From: a virus
Virus record (IMG/VR): IMGVR_UViG_3300032006_000044
Coordinates: 1 to 32,369 of that record
Direction: 5' to 3' (one strand)
Length of the DNA stretch: 32,369 nucleotides
Shown here: positions 8,428 through 32,098 of the stretch, one piece after another
Numbering within the stretch: position 1 is the stretch's first letter
How the letters are laid out: each line of letters starts with the position of its first letter
Notes under the pieces: model-generated
What the model was told of the DNA's origin: nothing
Databases searched by the model: none
What the model saw: only the letters and a program-made list of their open reading frames with translations
Translations under genes and position numbers: made by a program

Positions 8428-8453
8428 ATTTAATTAGGAGATACTTTACAGTG

Positions 8454-8504
8454 CTTTAGAGTAATTATCTATTGGTTTATTCTTTAATAATCCCTCTAAA
8501 GAAT
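8454..8504 (-). promoter_or_regulatory. Leader with two mutually exclusive hairpins
   Basis: In the leftward transcript leader, ATTCTTTA (8479-8486) can pair with TAAAGAAT (8497-8504) over a ten-base loop, or CTTTAGAG (8454-8461) can pair with CTCTAAAG (8494-8501). The two pairings compete for 8497-8501. No T-run follows, so it is not a terminator. It may be a switchable RNA structure or a protein-binding site. Confidence 0.4.
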
Positions 8505-8525
8505 CACTCTAGGCTTACGCTTCAT

Positions 8526-8554
8526 ATTATAGCACATAAGTTAACAAAAGTCAA
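8526..8554 (-). promoter_or_regulatory. Strong sigma70 promoter for the packaging/portal block
   Basis: On the minus strand TTGACT (8554-8549) and a perfect TATAAT (8531-8526) are separated by exactly 17 bases. The predicted start is near 8519, leaving a leader of about 90 bases before the gene at 8427. This is the best sigma70 match in the window and would start the transcript that runs through the terminase and portal genes. Confidence 0.85.
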
Positions 8555-8696
8555 GAACTTTAGTGTACTTTTGCTGTAGTATGTCTACTTTATCCCGTCC
8601 TTTTATTCCTTTTAGTAATATAACACATTAATTAAATAAAACAAAGACTTATTATGCGTTATTTTTGATTACTTTTATTGACTTTTGCTCTTTTTT

Positions 8697-8713
8697 GTGC
8701 GCCAGTGGGAACC
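8697..8713 (+). repeat. 17-base direct repeat, copy A
   Basis: GTGCGCCAGTGGGAACC matches copy B at 8883-8899 at 15 of 17 positions. The two copies bracket the four sigma54 promoter matches. Copy A lies about 50-160 bases upstream of the predicted sigma54 start points, the usual range for an enhancer-binding activator site; this role is inference. Confidence 0.55.
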
Positions 8714-8764
8714 GTTAACTATAATAAACTCACACACGGCCCCCGGGGGTCACAATACACAAAC

Positions 8765-8781
8765 TTGGCACGAATCTTGCA
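8765..8781 (+). promoter_or_regulatory. Sigma54 (RpoN) promoter match 1
   Basis: TTGGCACGAATCTTGCA fits the sigma54 consensus TGGCACG-N4-TTGC(A/T) exactly, with GG at 8767-8768 (-24 element) and GC at 8779-8780 (-12 element), ten bases apart. Predicted start near 8792, reading right toward the antirestriction cassette. Confidence 0.75.
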
Positions 8782-8790
8782 AGCCAAAAG

Positions 8791-8807
8791 TTGGCATGGA
8801 TTTTGCA
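8791..8807 (+). promoter_or_regulatory. Sigma54 (RpoN) promoter match 2
   Basis: TTGGCATGGATTTTGCA has the invariant GG (8793-8794) and GC (8805-8806) with correct spacing and one change (C to T) from TGGCACG. It starts 26 bases after match 1 and shares flanking AAAAG and GGG-AAAC with match 3, showing that the two arose by duplication. Confidence 0.7.
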
Positions 8808-8820
8808 GGGGAAACAAAAG

Positions 8821-8837
8821 TTGGCACGATTCTTGCA
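8821..8837 (+). promoter_or_regulatory. Sigma54 (RpoN) promoter match 3
   Basis: TTGGCACGATTCTTGCA is an exact match, with GG at 8823-8824 and GC at 8835-8836. It starts 30 bases after match 2. Predicted start near 8848. Confidence 0.75.
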
Positions 8838-8857
8838 TGGGTAAACCATTGGTCCGA

Positions 8858-8874
8858 TTGGCACGAATATTGCA
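8858..8874 (+). promoter_or_regulatory. Sigma54 (RpoN) promoter match 4
   Basis: TTGGCACGAATATTGCA is an exact match, with GG at 8860-8861 and GC at 8872-8873. It starts 37 bases after match 3 and is the closest to the genes; predicted start near 8885, about 130 bases before the ATG at 9017. No sigma70 promoter is evident between it and that ATG. Confidence 0.78.
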
Positions 8875-8882
8875 AGGCGTGA

Positions 8883-8899
8883 GTGTGCCAGTGGGACCC
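8883..8899 (+). repeat. 17-base direct repeat, copy B
   Basis: GTGTGCCAGTGGGACCC is the second copy of the repeat at 8697-8713, 186 bases downstream. It begins at about the predicted start point of sigma54 promoter 4. In both copies it is followed within a few bases by a TTAA-containing stretch. Confidence 0.55.
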
Positions 8900-9016
8900 T
8901 TTAAGCTACATTAAAAACCTATGATTAGTGTTGTGTCTTTAAGCTATATCGCGTATCCTCCGCCTTCACATTAACAGTGGGTGTTTCCCCATGCCAACAA
9001 TAGGAGAACCAAAAGT

Positions 9017-9151
9017 ATGACCCGTAAAGAAAAACGCAAAGCGCGTAAGATTAAAGCGCGAGCGATCAAGACAAAACGCATCATCAAATTGGAGCGTGAA
9101 CACGAGCGCCGCAAAGCTAAGCTGCAACGATTAGCAGCAAAGGCCTCATAA
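9017..9151 (+). CDS. 44-residue highly basic micro-protein
   Basis: ATG 9017 has AGGAG with nine to ten bases of spacing. The product begins MTRKEKRKARKIKARAIKTK and ends LQRLAAKAS; about half of its residues are Lys or Arg, with a single predicted long helix. It is the first gene behind the sigma54 array and lies 24 bases ahead of the ArdC-like gene, so both are probably on one transcript. Function unknown; such peptides may bind nucleic acids. Codon choice (CGT, CGC, GCG) matches the next two genes rather than the later operon. Confidence 0.65.
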   Translation: MTRKEKRKARKIKARAIKTKRIIKLEREHERRKAKLQRLAAKAS

Positions 9152-9175
9152 AAAACCAACGAAAGGATAGTGAAA

Positions 9176-10118: not shown

Positions 10119-10874
10119 ATGCACAAATTCAAAGCGGCCAGTAAGCGCCGCAAATTAAAACCTGAGAGAGGTTTTGTCCTGTACAAAGGACCATCCGCGC
10201 TCGACGGCCAGCCAATTATTGTAGTCGCTACGTTAGTCAGCAAAAACGATAAGACGGGTAATATGATCCAAGTCTGGATTATCAGAGAAGACGTCGAACC
10301 TTTGGATGCATCAAAATTAGGATACGATATAAGCATATGCGGCCATTGTGTCCATCGTCACTATCATAAGGGCGCTTGCTACGTGAATATTGGACAAGCG
10401 CCGAACGGTGTATTTCGCGCCTATAAGCGCGGCGTGTATCCGTTTTTTGACAGTGAAAAACACAGCGCCTATATAACGGGCAGAAAAATCCGATTAGGCG
10501 CTTATGGCGATCCTGCAGCGGCGCCCTATGATGTACTGTCGGATTTTGTCGAGCTTGGTGTAGGACACACTGGCTACACTCATCAATACAATCATCCTAA
10601 TTTTGATAGTCGATTTTTTAACCTAGTGATGGCATCCGTTGATACACCTAAAATGGCGGATAAACTCCAGAAAAAGGGCGCTAATACTTTCAGAGTGGCG
10701 CTTATAGGTGATTCGTTGTCGGATACTGAAAGCGAATGCCTATATGATGCGGAACAATTAAAATGTGCAGATTGTCTAATCTGTGATGGCAATTCTGGTA
10801 ATGTCGCTATACAGGTTCACGGTAGTCGAAAATCTAATTTCAAATCGGTTTTAATACCAATTATTGAGACATAA
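10119..10874 (+). CDS. Conserved phage/plasmid protein of unknown function (251 residues)
   Basis: Begins MHKFKAASKRRKLKPERGF and contains GPSALDGQPIIVVATLVSKN, KTGNMIQVWIIR, a probable metal site SICGHCVHRHYHKGACYVN (three Cys and several His, about residues 68-86), FRAYKRGVYPFF and GAYGDPAAAPYDV. Proteins with this set of motifs occur in many phages and mobile elements (recalled); no function is established. Cysteines recur near the end (KCADCLICDG). It starts only 14 bases after the terminator T-run and lacks a clear ribosome site, so how it is expressed is unclear. Composition resembles the ArdC-like gene. Confidence 0.8.
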   Translation: MHKFKAASKRRKLKPERGFVLYKGPSALDGQPIIVVATLVSKNDKTGNMIQVWIIREDVEPLDASKLGYDISICGHCVHRHYHKGACYVNIGQAPNGVFRAYKRGVYPFFDSEKHSAYITGRKIRLGAYGDPAAAPYDVLSDFVELGVGHTGYTHQYNHPNFDSRFFNLVMASVDTPKMADKLQKKGANTFRVALIGDSLSDTESECLYDAEQLKCADCLICDGNSGNVAIQVHGSRKSNFKSVLIPIIET

Positions 10875-10887
10875 CTGAAATAAATAC

Positions 10888-10916
10888 TTGACCATAACTA
10901 GAAAAAATGTTAAACT
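10888..10916 (+). promoter_or_regulatory. Sigma70 promoter ahead of the repeat block and replication operon
   Basis: TTGACC (10888-10893), a 17-base spacer, and TAAACT (10911-10916). The -10 region GTTAAACT-N6-ATAGTT (10909-10928) is identical in all fixed positions and spacing to that of the capsid promoter on the opposite strand, and TAAACT/AGTTTA form an inverted repeat. Confidence 0.65.
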
Positions 10917-11098
10917 CTCCATATAGTTTAGCTAAAAAGCACTATAGAGAGCACTATAGAGAGCACCATAGAGAGCACTATAGACAGCACTATAGAGACA
11001 ACATAGAAGGCACTATAGAGAGCACTATAGATACCCTTGACTTACACCATAGAGTAGACTATAAACAATACTCTAATGACTATAGAGTACCTATATGA
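10907..11098 (+). CDS. Doubtful 63-residue repeat-encoded ORF
   Basis: An open frame over the 12-base repeats encodes several HYRE-type units (from about residue 12) and then changes phase into IEGTIESTID where one repeat lost a base. No good ribosome site precedes ATG 10907, which itself lies inside the promoter at 10888-10916 and so upstream of its predicted start. The stop codon overlaps the next ATG (ATGA), which is the only support for translation. The DNA repeats are more likely to matter than the peptide. Confidence 0.2.
   Translation: MLNSPYSLAKKHYREHYREHHREHYRQHYRDNIEGTIESTIDTLDLHHRVDYKQYSNDYRVPI
10938..11032 (+). repeat. Eight tandem 12-base repeats (AGCACTATAGAG)
   Basis: Units start at 10938, 10950, 10962, 10974, 10986, 10998, 11010 and 11021. 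Units 1, 2 and 5 are identical (AGCACTATAGAG); units 3, 4 and 8 differ at one base; unit 6 is degenerate (ACAACATAGAAG); unit 7 lacks the first base. Further loose copies are at 11044 (ACACCATAGAG) and 11079 (GACTATAGAG). The block lies between two sigma70 promoters, directly ahead of the replication operon, so iteron-like origin sites or repressor/activator sites are the leading ideas. Confidence 0.85.
11037..11065 (+). promoter_or_regulatory. Sigma70 promoter of the replication/nucleotide operon
   Basis: TTGACT (11037-11042), a 17-base spacer, and TATAAA (11060-11065). The predicted start near 11072 leaves a leader of only about 23 bases before ATG 11095. It overlaps the end of the repeat block. 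Confidence 0.75.
11069..11089 (+). repeat. Inverted repeat over the start point and ribosome site
   Basis: TACTCTA (11069-11075) and TAGAGTA (11083-11089) are perfect inverted copies over a seven-base loop. The GAG (11085-11087) that would serve as ribosome site for ATG 11095 is inside the right arm. It could act as operator or as an RNA hairpin hiding the ribosome site. Confidence 0.5.
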
Positions 11099-11571
11099 AT
11101 ATATTCAGAGTACACGATAACCCCATAATTGCAGCACAATCTCTGTGTAATAAACACGTAGTTAAAATGGTGCTAGAAACAGCCCAGATACTTTCAGCAG
11201 CGCACCACACAGCAAATTCACAGTATGCTGATAAAGTGTACAAAGTTACACATAAAAACCACCCATGTACAAAGTGGGTTCGAGAATCACGCAGTAACTA
11301 CCAATGGACGTTTATTCATCTGTTAGGCTTGTTAAACGAGTATACTTACAGGTATAATAAACGACATAAAACAAGCAGATTGCTACCCTACTTGTGTATA
11401 ACACCTAATTTACCCGACGTTGGAGAGACAGAACCACCTCAAGCAATGTATGATGACTGTAGACACCCTGACGTTATTCATGCTTACAGGACATACTACA
11501 AAGAACGTCAAACCGAAATAGACATGCAATGGACAAAAAGAAAAAGACCAAATTGGTTAAAAACAACTTGA
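11095..11571 (+). CDS. Conserved phage protein, pyrimidine-dimer-glycosylase-like annotation
   Basis: A 158-residue protein starting MNIFRVHDNPIIAAQSLCNK, followed by HVVKMVLETAQILSAAHHTA, NHPCTKWVRESRSNYQWTF, EYTYRYNKRHKTS and the ending WTKRKRPNWL. This motif set defines a phage family sometimes annotated as pyrimidine dimer DNA glycosylase; the short C-terminal W-x-K-R-x-R-P-x-W echo of endonuclease V-type proteins is the only visible basis, so the catalytic claim is weak. It is the first gene of the replication operon. Confidence 0.55.
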   Translation: MNIFRVHDNPIIAAQSLCNKHVVKMVLETAQILSAAHHTANSQYADKVYKVTHKNHPCTKWVRESRSNYQWTFIHLLGLLNEYTYRYNKRHKTSRLLPYLCITPNLPDVGETEPPQAMYDDCRHPDVIHAYRTYYKERQTEIDMQWTKRKRPNWLKTT

Positions 11572-11672: not shown

Positions 11673-12089
11673 ATGGGTATGGAAACAGAATTTAGTCGAA
11701 ACTCGTTAGGACCAATGCAAGAAAGACAGCAGCTTTTGTTCAGAGATGTTGCGTTACACATGATCAGACAAGGCGAAAGATCCTCAAACACAGAGGGTGA
11801 GTGCAAGTATCGGTACGGCGATTTAAAATGCGCTGTGGGCTGTCTGATTAAAGACGAGCACTACAGTTCTGCTTTTGAAGATTTAACTGTAAATTCAGCG
11901 GAAGTGTCGGGAGCGGTAGAGAAATCTATCGGCAGAAAGTTGCAGGACGAAGACCTTGAAATGTTGAATCTGTTACAGAACGTCCACGATTTCGATCACC
12001 CAGAAGAGTGGAAGTTACACTTAAAGGGAGTCGGTCTGCGTTACTTCAACAAAGATTTACACCAGTTAAAAGTATTGAGAGGTTTCTAA
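11673..12089 (+). CDS. Conserved phage hypothetical protein (138 residues)
   Basis: Contains ECKYRYGDLKCAVGCLIKDE (about residues 44-63) with three cysteines, then ALTVN-type helices and an acidic segment near LLQNVHDFDHPEEWK (about 106-120). The YR-x-KCAVGCLI-x-DEHY and HD-x2-PEEW motifs recur in marine phage hypothetical proteins (recalled); no function is known. AAGGAG lies 12 bases before ATG 11673. It overlaps the next gene by TAATG. Confidence 0.7.
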   Translation: MGMETEFSRNSLGPMQERQQLLFRDVALHMIRQGERSSNTEGECKYRYGDLKCAVGCLIKDEHYSSAFEDLTVNSAEVSGAVEKSIGRKLQDEDLEMLNLLQNVHDFDHPEEWKLHLKGVGLRYFNKDLHQLKVLRGF

Positions 12090-12265
12090 TGACAGACTAC
12101 GAAATTGTCACGCTGTACGACAGCACTAACATAACTTTAGCGGACCTTTCGCTTCGTTCAGGGCGGTCAGTTGCGGAGTTAAAAAAACTCCTCATGGAAA
12201 CTGGTGATCCTTTTGAGGAGCCGTTTGATGATCCCGCCCGTTTTAAATTGAAGAGGTATTTTTAA
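12089..12265 (+). CDS. 58-residue putative helix-turn-helix protein
   Basis: Start ATG 12089 is chosen because GAGG lies seven bases upstream and the ATG overlaps the previous stop (TAATG), although the frame is open further upstream. The product MTDYEIVTLYDSTNITLADL followed by SLRSGRSVAELKKLLM looks like a helix-turn-helix: helix, turn at TNITLADLS, recognition helix SVAELKKLLM. It ends by overlapping thyX. It may be a DNA-binding regulator; this is inferred from pattern only. Confidence 0.6.
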   Translation: MTDYEIVTLYDSTNITLADLSLRSGRSVAELKKLLMETGDPFEEPFDDPARFKLKRYF

Positions 12266-12906
12266 TGCTACCTAAAGAACCCGTCAAGCTTGTTAGTTAT
12301 ACGACAGGAGTAAACGGTGAGTCCATAAAGGACTTAATCGTTTACTGTGCTCGTGTCTCTAATCCAGAGAGTCAATTAAAAGGTGAGAACACCAACAGGC
12401 TCTGGAACTATCTAAAAAGAGAAAAGCACTTCAGTCCGTTTGAAATGGCGTCGGTGTGTTTAGAAATAACCTGTAGCCGTAGCATATCAAGACAGCTAAT
12501 ACGACATAGGTCATTCACGTTTCAGGAGTTTAGTCAACGTTACGCAGACCCTACAGAGAGTCTAGGTTTCGCTTTTCAGGAGGCTAGACTACAGGACAGG
12601 CGTAACCGACAAAACAGCATAGAGACAGACGACGAGCACCTACAGAGAAAGTGGGTAGCTGCTCAGAGTCATGTTAAAGATATAGCATTAGGTACATACA
12701 TCAAAGCACTGTCTTTAGGTATTGCTAAAGAACAGGCGCGATCTTTGCTGCCTGAAGGTTTAACACTCTCGAAAGTGTACATGAACGGTACACTGCGAAG
12801 CTGGATGCACTTTATTGAAGTACGTACAGACGTATCCGCACAAAAAGAGATTAGACAAATAGCAGAAAGCTGTGATACAATAATCCAAAATTTAGTGGAG
12901 AAATAG
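12265..12906 (+). CDS. thyX: Flavin-dependent thymidylate synthase ThyX
   Basis: A 213-residue ThyX. The signature RHR-x7-S is present (RHRSFTFQEFS, residues 80-90), followed by QRY. It converts dUMP to dTMP using methylenetetrahydrofolate, FAD and NADPH, supplying dTTP for phage DNA synthesis. Other family traits: YCARVSNPES (27-36) and HFSPFEMASV (55-64), both typical of ThyX. ATG overlaps the previous stop (TAATG), with GAGG upstream. Together with the class II reductase later in the operon it forms a nucleotide-supply set. Confidence 0.97.
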   Translation: MLPKEPVKLVSYTTGVNGESIKDLIVYCARVSNPESQLKGENTNRLWNYLKREKHFSPFEMASVCLEITCSRSISRQLIRHRSFTFQEFSQRYADPTESLGFAFQEARLQDRRNRQNSIETDDEHLQRKWVAAQSHVKDIALGTYIKALSLGIAKEQARSLLPEGLTLSKVYMNGTLRSWMHFIEVRTDVSAQKEIRQIAESCDTIIQNLVEK

Positions 12907-21430: not shown

Positions 21431-21811
21431 ATGTCCTACAGTGATAAAGTAATGGATCACTACGAGAACCCACGGAACGTCGGTAAGCTAAACGCTGACG
21501 ACGAAGACGTGGGTACTGGGATGGTGGGAGCACCTGCATGTGGTGACGTAATGAAGCTACAGATTAAAGTAGGCAACGAAGGCATCATTGAAGACGCCAA
21601 GTTTAAGACCTACGGATGCGGTAGTGCCATTGCGTCTAGCTCCCTGCTGACTGAGTGGGTCAAGGGCAGGACTCTGGAAGAAGCAGGTAGTATCAGGAAC
21701 ACACAGATTGCGGAAGAACTAGCGTTACCGCCTGTAAAGATACATTGTTCTGTGTTGGCTGAAGACGCTATTAAAGCTGCTATTAGTGACTACCAAAAGA
21801 AAAACAAATAG
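21431..21811 (+). CDS. iscU: IscU-type iron-sulfur cluster scaffold protein
   Basis: A full-length 126-residue IscU homologue (E. coli IscU is 128). All functional residues are present at the same numbers as in E. coli: C37 and D39 (APACGDVM), C63 (YGCGSAIASS), the HscA-chaperone motif LPPVK (99-103), H105 and C106 (IHCSVLAEDA). It assembles 2Fe-2S clusters from cysteine desulfurase and passes them to client proteins. It is the last gene of the rightward operon, three bases after nrdJ, and its stop faces the converging structural block. No other Isc gene is present, so it must plug into the host system. Confidence 0.95.
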   Translation: MSYSDKVMDHYENPRNVGKLNADDEDVGTGMVGAPACGDVMKLQIKVGNEGIIEDAKFKTYGCGSAIASSSLLTEWVKGRTLEEAGSIRNTQIAEELALPPVKIHCSVLAEDAIKAAISDYQKKNK

Positions 21812-29510: not shown

Positions 29511-30158
29511 TCAAGGTGTGTAGAAGATTAATTCTTCAGGATGTCTACCAGCATCGTGAGCTACAGCGTCAGACAAATACTTGTTTGCAATCTGAAAGTG
29601 TTCTGCTACTGAAGTACCTGTAGTTTCACCACGTTCTCTTACCGCTAAAGCAAGAGCTAGCTGTACAACAGGGTTTTCAGGAACTGCTAAAGAATCAGAG
29701 TCTGCACTTAACGCAGCATTGCGTTTTACTGCGTCTACTCTTAATGCGTACACTGCATCGGGTTTAGGATAAACGTCTATTGTCATGTCTCCATTACCGT
29801 CTACACCAGCATACGTGTAGTATCGTGGTGCTCCTGAAACAGGGTTATTTATGTGATACTGTTCGTCAAACCAATTATTAGTCTGGTACTGCATAACAAG
29901 ATTAGACGTGTCGTTAATAATGTTTAGCTCTTTTATTTTATCTGAGCTACCTGTCAGTGAATAGTTAGACGTACCGGAAACCGTATTAATTGCAAGTGTA
30001 GTTCTAAGCGCAGACCAATCCCACGAACTTTCTACTAAATCTTTAGCGTCGTTTACAAGATCACCTATAAGTTTACTGTAGCTGTCTGCTTGAACAGTAG
30101 ACACTTCGTTTTCTCTTAGTCGCCTAAGAACGCTATTAACTAGCTGCACATAAGTCAC
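29511..30158 (-). CDS. Tail adaptor (T7 gp11 tubular A-like)
   Basis: A 215-residue protein with LVNSVLRRLRENEVST at the start, LVNDAKDLVESSWDWSALRT (about 50) and a beta-rich middle (FDEQYHINNPVSGAPRYYTY), ending HPEELIFYTP. The VLRRLRE ... ESSWDWSALR pattern is typical of gp11-like head-tail adaptors that form the ring between portal and nozzle. The start is GTG 30158 with GGAGG nine bases upstream, overlapping the previous stop (GTGA). Confidence 0.85.
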   Translation of the reverse strand: MTYVQLVNSVLRRLRENEVSTVQADSYSKLIGDLVNDAKDLVESSWDWSALRTTLAINTVSGTSNYSLTGSSDKIKELNIINDTSNLVMQYQTNNWFDEQYHINNPVSGAPRYYTYAGVDGNGDMTIDVYPKPDAVYALRVDAVKRNAALSADSDSLAVPENPVVQLALALAVRERGETTGTSVAEHFQIANKYLSDAVAHDAGRHPEELIFYTP

Positions 30159-32098
30159 GAGAACATTCCTCCGTCTCTCATAAGACCTTGTAAAACAGGT
30201 CTTGTAGGTTCTGTATATAAAGTTGCTGTTTGAAGATTTCTAAGCGGAGTTATCATATCTTGAAACAAAAACTCTACGGGTGTAAAAGGAGGTAAATTTA
30301 AATCCCGTCTATTTTGAGCAAGATCGGCCTGTTCAAACTTAATTCGTCCGCCTCCTCCGCCTCCGCTTGGCGGTTCTGGTTCTGGTGGTGTGGGCGTAGG
30401 TGGTCCAGTAAAAGGATCATCTGGCGGCGGTGGTGGTTGTGTTAAAGGATCTTCTTGAAATGATTTGTTATGTACAATAACACCGTCTACAGCATACGTG
30501 TGTGTTTCTGCTGTAGTAAAGTTATAAACTTTTACTGTTTGTTCTTCGCTACTAAGTTTTTTAACTTCTTCCGTTCCGTCTACAGTTATCAACGTATCGC
30601 CTATATTAAGCTGTTGTACGTCAATGCCGTATGACATATAAAGGTCTTTAGAAGCTTCTGAATTGTTAGATTTCCAACCTTCTTCCGTCAAAAATGGATG
30701 AGCTTCAGTTGTAACAATTCTGTTGTTTATTGTCCAAAGAGTTCTTGTTTCTTCAGGAATATCGTGAACATAAACAACTGTATCCGTCAAACCGTCTTTT
30801 GCAAGAACAACATCATTAACTTCTATGTCTTCAATATTTTTTAAGGTTCCGTCTGCCATATTTACAGGCGTACCCGCTACAAAACAAGATAACCTATCGT
30901 CTCGTTTTTCTGTAGTGCTTGGCCCTCCGCTTCCCGGTCTAACTTTAGGCTTATCATCAGGCGAAATTACTGGTCCAAGAGGTTTTTTTGGTGGAATTTT
31001 GGTGTCATCTGGAGGAGGACCGTCATCTAGTGGGGGCCTTCTATTGGTGTCGTCAACTCTTCCTGTATTGGGCGGCGGCGTAGGAGTATTAGTAGAATCA
31101 TTAGGATAGTCATCACTATTGTCGCCTATACCGTCGTTATCACTATCAACGGTTTCTGTTGGGTCGTCAGGAAAAGCGTCTTGTGAATCTGGAACCCCGT
31201 CACCATCAGAGTCAAGATCAGTACCAACAGGCGGTGTTTCAGTAGGACCTTCGTCTAAACGAAGCGTCGGTATAACTTCTGTATTTACCCTATTAATAAG
31301 ATCGCCTACCCACCAAACGCTAGGGTCAATAACACCTTCAAATTCTGAGTCAAAAATGCTTCCAATTACGTTACCAGCTATATCAAGAATATCCCCTACG
31401 CTGTTTACTGAACCAACGTCTTCAAGTTCACCTAAAATATCTGAAGCTTTATCAAAAAGTTTTTGAGGAAGACCTTGTATATCGCCCCATAATTCTCCTA
31501 TTTTTGCAGCAGCAGAACTAGCAAAAACATTGTTTCCGTTTTCGTCAGTTATGTCTATTTCTAAAATACCGTCCTTTATAAAAGGAATGCCAGTATTAAT
31601 AATTAGTGTTTTACGGCCTCCCGGCTCACCGTAAACTTTTATGCCTATTCCACCACCACCAAGTAAAGCTTTATCGAGAAGTGTTGAAAGCTCTTTATCT
31701 AACTCATTGTCGCTTTGTAAAATTTTAGCTAATTCAGCTTCCGACATTTGCTGAAGCATCATAGTATATTTTTCAAGCTCTAAATCTTGTGCTGCTTGAT
31801 CCCCTGTTAAATCTGGATCTGTTTCAAAAGTACCTTCTTCTTCAGCACCGTCGTTTACAACTTCTTCTCCTTTTAAGAGTCTTACAAGATTCTTAACGTC
31901 AGCTTCTTCATAACCAGAGGCAGCTTGTAGCAACTCCATTACATTGTTTATTTCGCCACTTTGTCTTGCGCCGTCTCTTAACCATTGATAAAAAAACTTT
32001 AAGTCTGGATCACTAACAGTACCTATAAATGTATCAAGTTCGCTCCATCTTTCGTTTGGCCTATTTGGATCTCTTTTATAATTTCGATTCTCAGTCAT
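30155..32098 (-). CDS. Virion-block protein with TSP3-type calcium repeats and a Hint autoprocessing domain
   Basis: A 647-residue mosaic. Residues 1-290: helical then mixed region, no known motif. Residues 294-335: two thrombospondin type 3-like calcium loops (DLDSDGDGVPDSQDAFPDD; VDSDNDGIGDNSDDYPND). Residues 340-400: Pro/Asp/Lys-rich linker. Residues 405-544: Hint (Hedgehog/intein) domain with Cys405 (SCFVAGTPVNMADGT), block B T464-E-A-H467 (TTEAHPFL) and the terminal His543-Asn544 (VIVHNKS). There is no homing endonuclease insert. The residue after Asn is Lys, so normal protein splicing is unlikely and self-cleavage is more likely. Residues 550-647: Pro/Gly-rich linker and a short folded tail ending MRDGGMFS. 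It sits between the holin-like gene and the tail adaptor; a processed tail appendage is inferred. Confidence 0.8.
   Translation of the reverse strand: MTENRNYKRDPNRPNERWSELDTFIGTVSDPDLKFFYQWLRDGARQSGEINNVMELLQAASGYEEADVKNLVRLLKGEEVVNDGAEEEGTFETDPDLTGDQAAQDLELEKYTMMLQQMSEAELAKILQSDNELDKELSTLLDKALLGGGGIGIKVYGEPGGRKTLIINTGIPFIKDGILEIDITDENGNNVFASSAAAKIGELWGDIQGLPQKLFDKASDILGELEDVGSVNSVGDILDIAGNVIGSIFDSEFEGVIDPSVWWVGDLINRVNTEVIPTLRLDEGPTETPPVGTDLDSDGDGVPDSQDAFPDDPTETVDSDNDGIGDNSDDYPNDSTNTPTPPPNTGRVDDTNRRPPLDDGPPPDDTKIPPKKPLGPVISPDDKPKVRPGSGGPSTTEKRDDRLSCFVAGTPVNMADGTLKNIEDIEVNDVVLAKDGLTDTVVYVHDIPEETRTLWTINNRIVTTEAHPFLTEEGWKSNNSEASKDLYMSYGIDVQQLNIGDTLITVDGTEEVKKLSSEEQTVKVYNFTTAETHTYAVDGVIVHNKSFQEDPLTQPPPPPDDPFTGPPTPTPPEPEPPSGGGGGGRIKFEQADLAQNRRDLNLPPFTPVEFLFQDMITPLRNLQTATLYTEPTRPVLQGLMRDGGMFS

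Follow-up and report, generated by a model that had tools for sequence, protein, structure and literature searches.

A row of short tandem repeats at the head of a phage operon containing replication genes is most likely a switch for the DNA-synthesis genes that lie downstream of it. The array of 12-mers is real, and it is probably functional and of a known kind. We would give an even chance to one particular role, that of a promoter-proximal tandem operator for a candidate regulator of the replication operon. An operator is the simplest reading because the repeated word is oriented, arranged in tandem and close to presumed transcription starts, in phages that otherwise have little in common at these places.

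The window, that is, the whole stretch of DNA analysed here, is a record of 32,369 bases from an uncultured marine virus of bacteria, with the gene set of a tailed phage. Its minus strand carries the portal, the terminase and the major head protein, and its plus strand an anti-restriction-like protein, thyX, a primase-helicase, a DNA polymerase, a Cas4-like exonuclease and a ribonucleotide reductase. Two further products may be mentioned. The gene at 21431-21811 (+), judged by its sequence, presumably encodes an IscU-like iron-sulphur scaffold. In the translation of 30155-32098 (-), a protein of the structural region, SCFVAGTPVNM...HTYAVDGVIVHNKS resembles a Hint/intein-type domain.

The array lies inside the 220-base gap 10875-11094. 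The operon behind it comprises a pyrimidine-dimer-glycosylase-like gene, thyX, an SSB-like gene, the primase-helicase and the polymerase, and the SSB-like gene and the primase-helicase begin 2.3-2.7 kb downstream of the start of the glycosylase-like gene. An earlier sequence-only reading had placed the array just before the replication genes. Since the first downstream gene is a Pyr_excise match, the array heads the operon that contains these genes, but the gene next to it is not strictly a replication gene. Two flanking sigma70 promoters had also been proposed. Matches are present on both sides (P1 and P2, Table 1), but they are only moderate, as 52 of 500 shuffles of the gap also reach at least 10/12 matches to a sigma70-type promoter. 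Past the array, two looser copies of the unit are found; copies with three mismatches are common by chance, so that the one at P2 is meaningful by its position alone. The inverted repeat at the end of the gap would be able to form a 7-bp RNA hairpin immediately ahead of the start codon.

Table 1. The array and neighbouring features of the window (positions are those of the window)
Feature	Position	Strand	Remarks
P1, promoter-like, TTGACC-17-TAAACT	10888-10916	+	9/12 matches, weak
Alternative to P1, TAGAAA-17-TATAGT	10899-10927	+	9/12 matches, weak
63-aa ORF spanning the array	10907-11098	+	frame broken by unit 6; no family above cut-off
Array of eight tandem units	10938-11032	+	units start at 10938, 10950, 10962, 10974, 10986, 10998 (11 bases), 11009 and 11021; end at 11032
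Unit 6 of the array	10998-11008	+	11 bases; third from end
P2, promoter-like, TTGACT-17-TATAAA	11037-11065	+	10/12 matches; begins 5 bases past the array
Looser outlying copy TACACCATAGAG	11043-11054	+	3 mismatches; within the P2 spacer
Inverted repeat TACTCTA-N7-TAGAGTA	11069-11089	+	belongs to a stretch resembling the L086 45-base repeats
Outlying copy ATGACTATAGAG	11076-11087	+	2 mismatches; past P2, ahead of the start codon at 11095
Pyrimidine-dimer-glycosylase-like gene, first downstream of the array	11095-11571	+	Pyr_excise PF03013, phrog_624
58-aa protein, helix-turn-helix candidate of the sequence-only reading	12089-12265	+	two-helix model, mean pLDDT 62.6

The units have the consensus AGCACTATAGAG with the core CACTATAG, and their period is 12 bases except for one 11-base unit: five regular units are followed by the irregular one and by two more. 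TRF calls the array at 10938-11031 (period 12, 7.9 copies) with a score of 139, to be compared with a maximum of 62 among the 149 rows obtained when the whole window was shuffled 30 times with dinucleotides preserved. The description first given, of eight tandem 12-base repeats with one 11-base unit, therefore stands. A BLASTN search of phages and plasmids with 10930-11094, in which the low-complexity filter may mask repeats, gave no match, and neither did an IMG/VR scan with a 24-base exact pattern. No account of the array was seen in a literature search at the level of titles and abstract openings, which does not imply its absence from print; PMC7693777 concerns a putative phage sigma54-like factor rather than promoter arrays.

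The same 12-mer array occurs ahead of the replication genes of a distant phage, L179 (IMGVR_UViG_3300006929_000044), a 36.7-kb record whose primase and polymerase are each 39% identical to those of the window. There, the primase, thyX, polymerase, exonuclease and reductase genes lie on one strand and the structural genes on the opposite one. The L179 array is intergenic, has the consensus CACTATAGAGAA/G and contains seven exact CACTATAG at 2344-2446. From 2344, six regular 12-base units, the sixth being CACTATAAAGAG, are followed by an irregular 11-base unit and by two regular ones. The two arrays have in common the consensus, the intergenic location and an 11-base unit with two more units after it, but the regular units that precede this one number six in L179 and five in the window, and L179 alone shows TATAAT-like stretches before the first unit and within the irregular unit. 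Local alignment of the two arrays scores 107, against 22.9 +/- 4.2 for shuffles (0/300 as high). This common plan is suggestive of common descent without being proof of it.

Comparison with L179 also bears on a coding role. The odd unit does shift the reading frame, as had been noticed, and the 63-aa ORF passes there from HYRE-type to IEGT/IEST repeats. A peptide repeat was rejected on three grounds, namely the frame broken at unit 6, the lack of a family for the ORF and the L179 array, which lies within no plus-strand ORF over 33 aa. The 63-aa ORF is probably not a selected protein, and selection on a peptide, already doubted in the sequence-only reading, finds no support.

Where the units vary, they do so mainly outside the core. 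Compared with CACTATAGAGAG, all eight units of the window differ at 3/64 core and 6/32 spacer positions (p 0.056). For the eight regular units of L179, with the irregular one left out, the figures are 1/64 and 5/32 (p 0.015), and for the two sets combined 4/128 and 11/64 (p 0.001); in this test the core was chosen after inspection of the data, and L179 had been found through a CACTATAG search. The counts point to selection that would act on the CACTATAG core.

Another phage, L230, has a 139-base intergenic element with CACTATAGAGAACACTATAG in two inverted copies (2648-2784 and 10539-10674; 84.9% identical). One copy is directed at minus-strand thyX and primase-like genes and the other at plus-strand genes. 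Pairs of the form CACTATAG-N2-7-CACTATAG were then considered more widely (81 stretches, 80 loci analysed). In eight of the 80 loci (6 distinct) there is a terminase with 45% identity or more to that of the window, and in five a primase with 30% or more, whereas with the reversed pattern (at least 120 stretches, 80 loci analysed) 0/80 loci have a terminase relative and 0/80 a primase relative. Such pairs are thus over-represented in this phage group. All eight terminase-bearing loci have their sites directed away from the terminase, which is also the orientation in the window. In six of these eight (4 distinct), the pair starts exactly 23 bases past the start of a sigma54-like TGG, which is 8 past TTGC, while L217 and L193 have no sigma54-like site. 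The near-identical pairs L240/L229 and L177/L174 are included in the counts of eight and six, hence the lower numbers of distinct loci. The distance of 23 bases would be near the presumed sigma54 start, if the usual consensus and start distance are taken as a guide. It was the CACTATAG pattern that led to L179, L230 and the eight terminase-bearing loci; presence of the motif in them is therefore by construction, and the weight lies with gene content, orientation, spacing and copy number.

Sigma54-like sites are also found elsewhere. The window has four of them in tandem at 8764-8877 (+), in the divergent gap, of the TTGGCACG-N4-TTGCA type and with TGG at 8766, 8792, 8822 and 8859. Among 59 terminase relatives, 17 have at least two such sites upstream of the terminase, and up to six.

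Most relatives are without the array. All close relatives fetched lack it, including L086, whose gene order is that of the window, with thyX identical over 212 residues and a primase 89% identical. In the matching gap of L086 there is no CACTATAG array, and two 45-base repeats are found instead. The tail of the window's gap, 11033-11094, aligns to the L086 gap with a score of 32 (0/300 shuffles as high), whereas the array itself shows no resemblance to that gap (45/300 shuffles as high). A lack of repeats at this place in relatives had been named as an outcome that would refute the proposal; this is half the case, the close syntenic L086 having different repeats there and L179 the same ones. 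L086 has homologues of the genes 11673-12089 (94% identical) and 12089-12265 (91%). Since L086 lacks the array, both proteins would be poor candidates for its reader, unless they read the L086 repeats too. The 58-aa protein 12089-12265, which has no PHROG or Pfam match and whose single-sequence model shows two helices at low confidence, was the one candidate reader among the window proteins.

The thyX genes deserve a separate remark. The window's (12265-12906) and that of L086 (1609-2244) are 100% identical at the protein level, against 55% for the glycosylase-like gene and 89% for the primase, an excess suggesting that the two lineages may have recombined recently. Slicky01 also matches the window, in thyX only.

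Farther out, a CTATAG tandem is present upstream in 0/59 terminase relatives that include 1.5 kb or more of upstream sequence, which were fetched regardless of motif; the element is thus patchy. An ACTATAG pair occurs in one of 160 primase- plus terminase-relative loci (L095). In L170, four ACTATAG copies with a 10-base period stand within CACTATAGAG repeats; exact CACTATAGAG was found in 7/80 phrog_624 loci, all in one repeated context without tandem copies, and in 0/80 primase-relative loci, 0/80 terminase-relative loci and neither of the two loci fetched via the 10119-10874 protein. Arrays of at least three ACTATAG (104 stretches, 80 loci analysed) occur in many phages with no match to window proteins, a primase relative being present in 5/80 loci. 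Short CTATAG-type repeats therefore arise elsewhere too. A genome scan for ACTATAG triples gave at least 118 stretches, mostly in Bacteroidales contigs and, among the matches listed, most with a 9-base period. In L179 and L170, TATAAT accompanies the ACTATAG arrays; a general association was dropped, as among 82 arrays 6 had TATAAT upstream and 7 its reverse complement. In two related phages, the corresponding part of the divergent gap contains other short tandem repeats, the 11-mer ACACCACAGGC in L112 (2907-2967) and the 10-mer AGCCTATAGT in L095 (3008-3036). In L140-L143, L151 and L154, 12-mer arrays of GCTAGGGAAGCA stand immediately upstream of the primase start; these are taken, without proof, for coding repeats.

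Such patchiness invites the idea of a drifting minisatellite, in which slippage would have multiplied one operator-like word and the copy number would be without function. The absence of the array from the close relatives examined, the different repeats at the equivalent place in L086, the unit of odd length and the similar CTATAG repeats in many unrelated contigs all speak in this sense. We nevertheless consider drift unlikely: the same 12-mer array stands ahead of the L179 replication genes, spacing and orientation are fixed in other phages, and the substitutions spare the core, at a level borderline for the window alone.

The array had been proposed to be either the iterons of a replication origin or a multimeric regulator site. 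As origin iterons, the copies would be bound by an initiator, which would open the DNA beside the replication genes. The array does consist of short tandem repeats of one unit close to such genes, and arrays of initiator repeats are a theme in this phage group, where tandem DnaA boxes with an 11-base period are found. At least two exact DnaA boxes are present in 13 of the 59 terminase relatives that extend 1.5 kb or farther upstream. Arrays of TGTGGATAA or near it, with that period, stand in the divergent gap of L279 (1873-1982) and L281 (5475-5564), and arrays of the same type in the terminase relatives L264, L271, L272, L277, L280, L282 and L335. A role of these DnaA-box arrays as origin or in DnaA titration is possible. 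The window has 0 exact DnaA boxes (TTATCCACA); its array was thus rejected as a DnaA-box array, and the phage may need another initiator site. However, the DnaA-box arrays of the group sit in the divergent gap (8428-9169 in the window), about 2 kb from the array studied here, and it is near this gap, too, that the window has its GC-skew minimum, a position confounded by gene direction. In addition, the two L230 copies facing two operons suit operators better than one origin, and among the scanned proteins, several of them small and without family, none was recognised as an initiator. An origin is therefore the less favoured half of the proposal and, in our opinion, improbable. The regulator site is supported, indirectly, by the recurrence in L179, the operon-facing copies of L230, the one-way orientation, the fixed promoter distance and the core conservation.

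The repeats could also act in the transcript. In a structured RNA leader, the palindromic CTATAG units would pair and control translation, stability or attenuation. Folding z-scores of -3.69 for 10923-11094, -3.93 for the array and -4.78 for the L179 array are in line with this, as is the -6.83 of the L086 leader (232-380), which occupies the position of the array in the window. This leader contains two long AT-rich hairpins; the latter, at its end, is terminator-like and runs into a U run, an attenuator-like arrangement. However, any palindromic repeat outfolds its shuffles, the L177 stretch has a z of only -0.49, the conserved CA lies outside the palindrome and is unnecessary for pairing, and the window has no Rfam match. 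A leader of this type seems quite unlikely.

The resemblance to T7-type promoters was well seen, as CACTATAG, exact in six of the eight units, corresponds to positions -7 to +1 of the T7 promoter. This counts for tandem promoters, or fragments of them, read by a single-subunit RNA polymerase of the T7 type. However, the upstream recognition half is missing from the 12-base unit, and PF00940 has no match in the window, L179 or 19 further records (21 in total, most of them, like the window, fragments), while phage T7 was recovered at 9.9e-110 in the same search as the window. The absence of a T7-type polymerase from the window, already pointed out, is thereby confirmed, and the T7-type promoter was rejected; we would regard it as extremely unlikely.

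Coming back to the operator, the row of direct copies of the oriented recognition word CACTATAG would be a cis-acting control site. From what precedes we infer that the copies lie close to, or overlap, the transcription start of a promoter driving the replication operon. A putative sequence-specific DNA-binding protein, of the phage or of its host, would bind neighbouring copies cooperatively, and the bound copies would repress or time the operon, from the glycosylase-like gene and thyX through the SSB-like gene to the primase-helicase and polymerase. Constant orientation is observed at several operons and in several relatives (the two L230 copies, the eight loci, L179). The patchy distribution, the lack of the array in L086, the weak promoters of the window and the absence of TATAAT enrichment count against this reading. 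A broader proposal can be made tentatively and is rather doubtful. The CACTATAG repeats would be the site of an undescribed regulator at replication-side transcript starts in several marine phage lineages, with sigma54-like or sigma70-like promoters, and would have spread between lineages as a promoter-proximal cassette.

With at least 599 terminase relatives in IMG/VR, the phage group is common, but the phage collection contains no cultured phage close to it: the best hits to the terminase reach 32-42% identity over half to two thirds of its length. In this context, the array bears on the question of replication timing in the group. A 12-base word common to distant members offers a handle to fish out the regulator. 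It also allows one to ask how phages without an RNA polymerase of their own in the searched records stage their genes.

Like T7/SP6-type promoters, the array presents CACTATAG with an AGAG-like stretch after it, but it has no recognition half and no cognate polymerase was found. Plasmid and phage iterons and DnaA-box arrays are tandem short repeats near replication genes, as here; in contrast with the DnaA-box iteron arrays, the window array has no exact DnaA box or recognised initiator and stands outside the divergent gap. Its unit sequence and 12-base period are not known to match any tandem direct-repeat operator, and no cognate protein is known. At tandem direct-repeat operators, such as met-box or ParR/omega-type arrays, cooperative binding is expected. 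The tandem operators of phage and plasmid regulators are made, as is the window array, of short in-register oriented repeats beside promoters or, in the window, promoter-like sequences.
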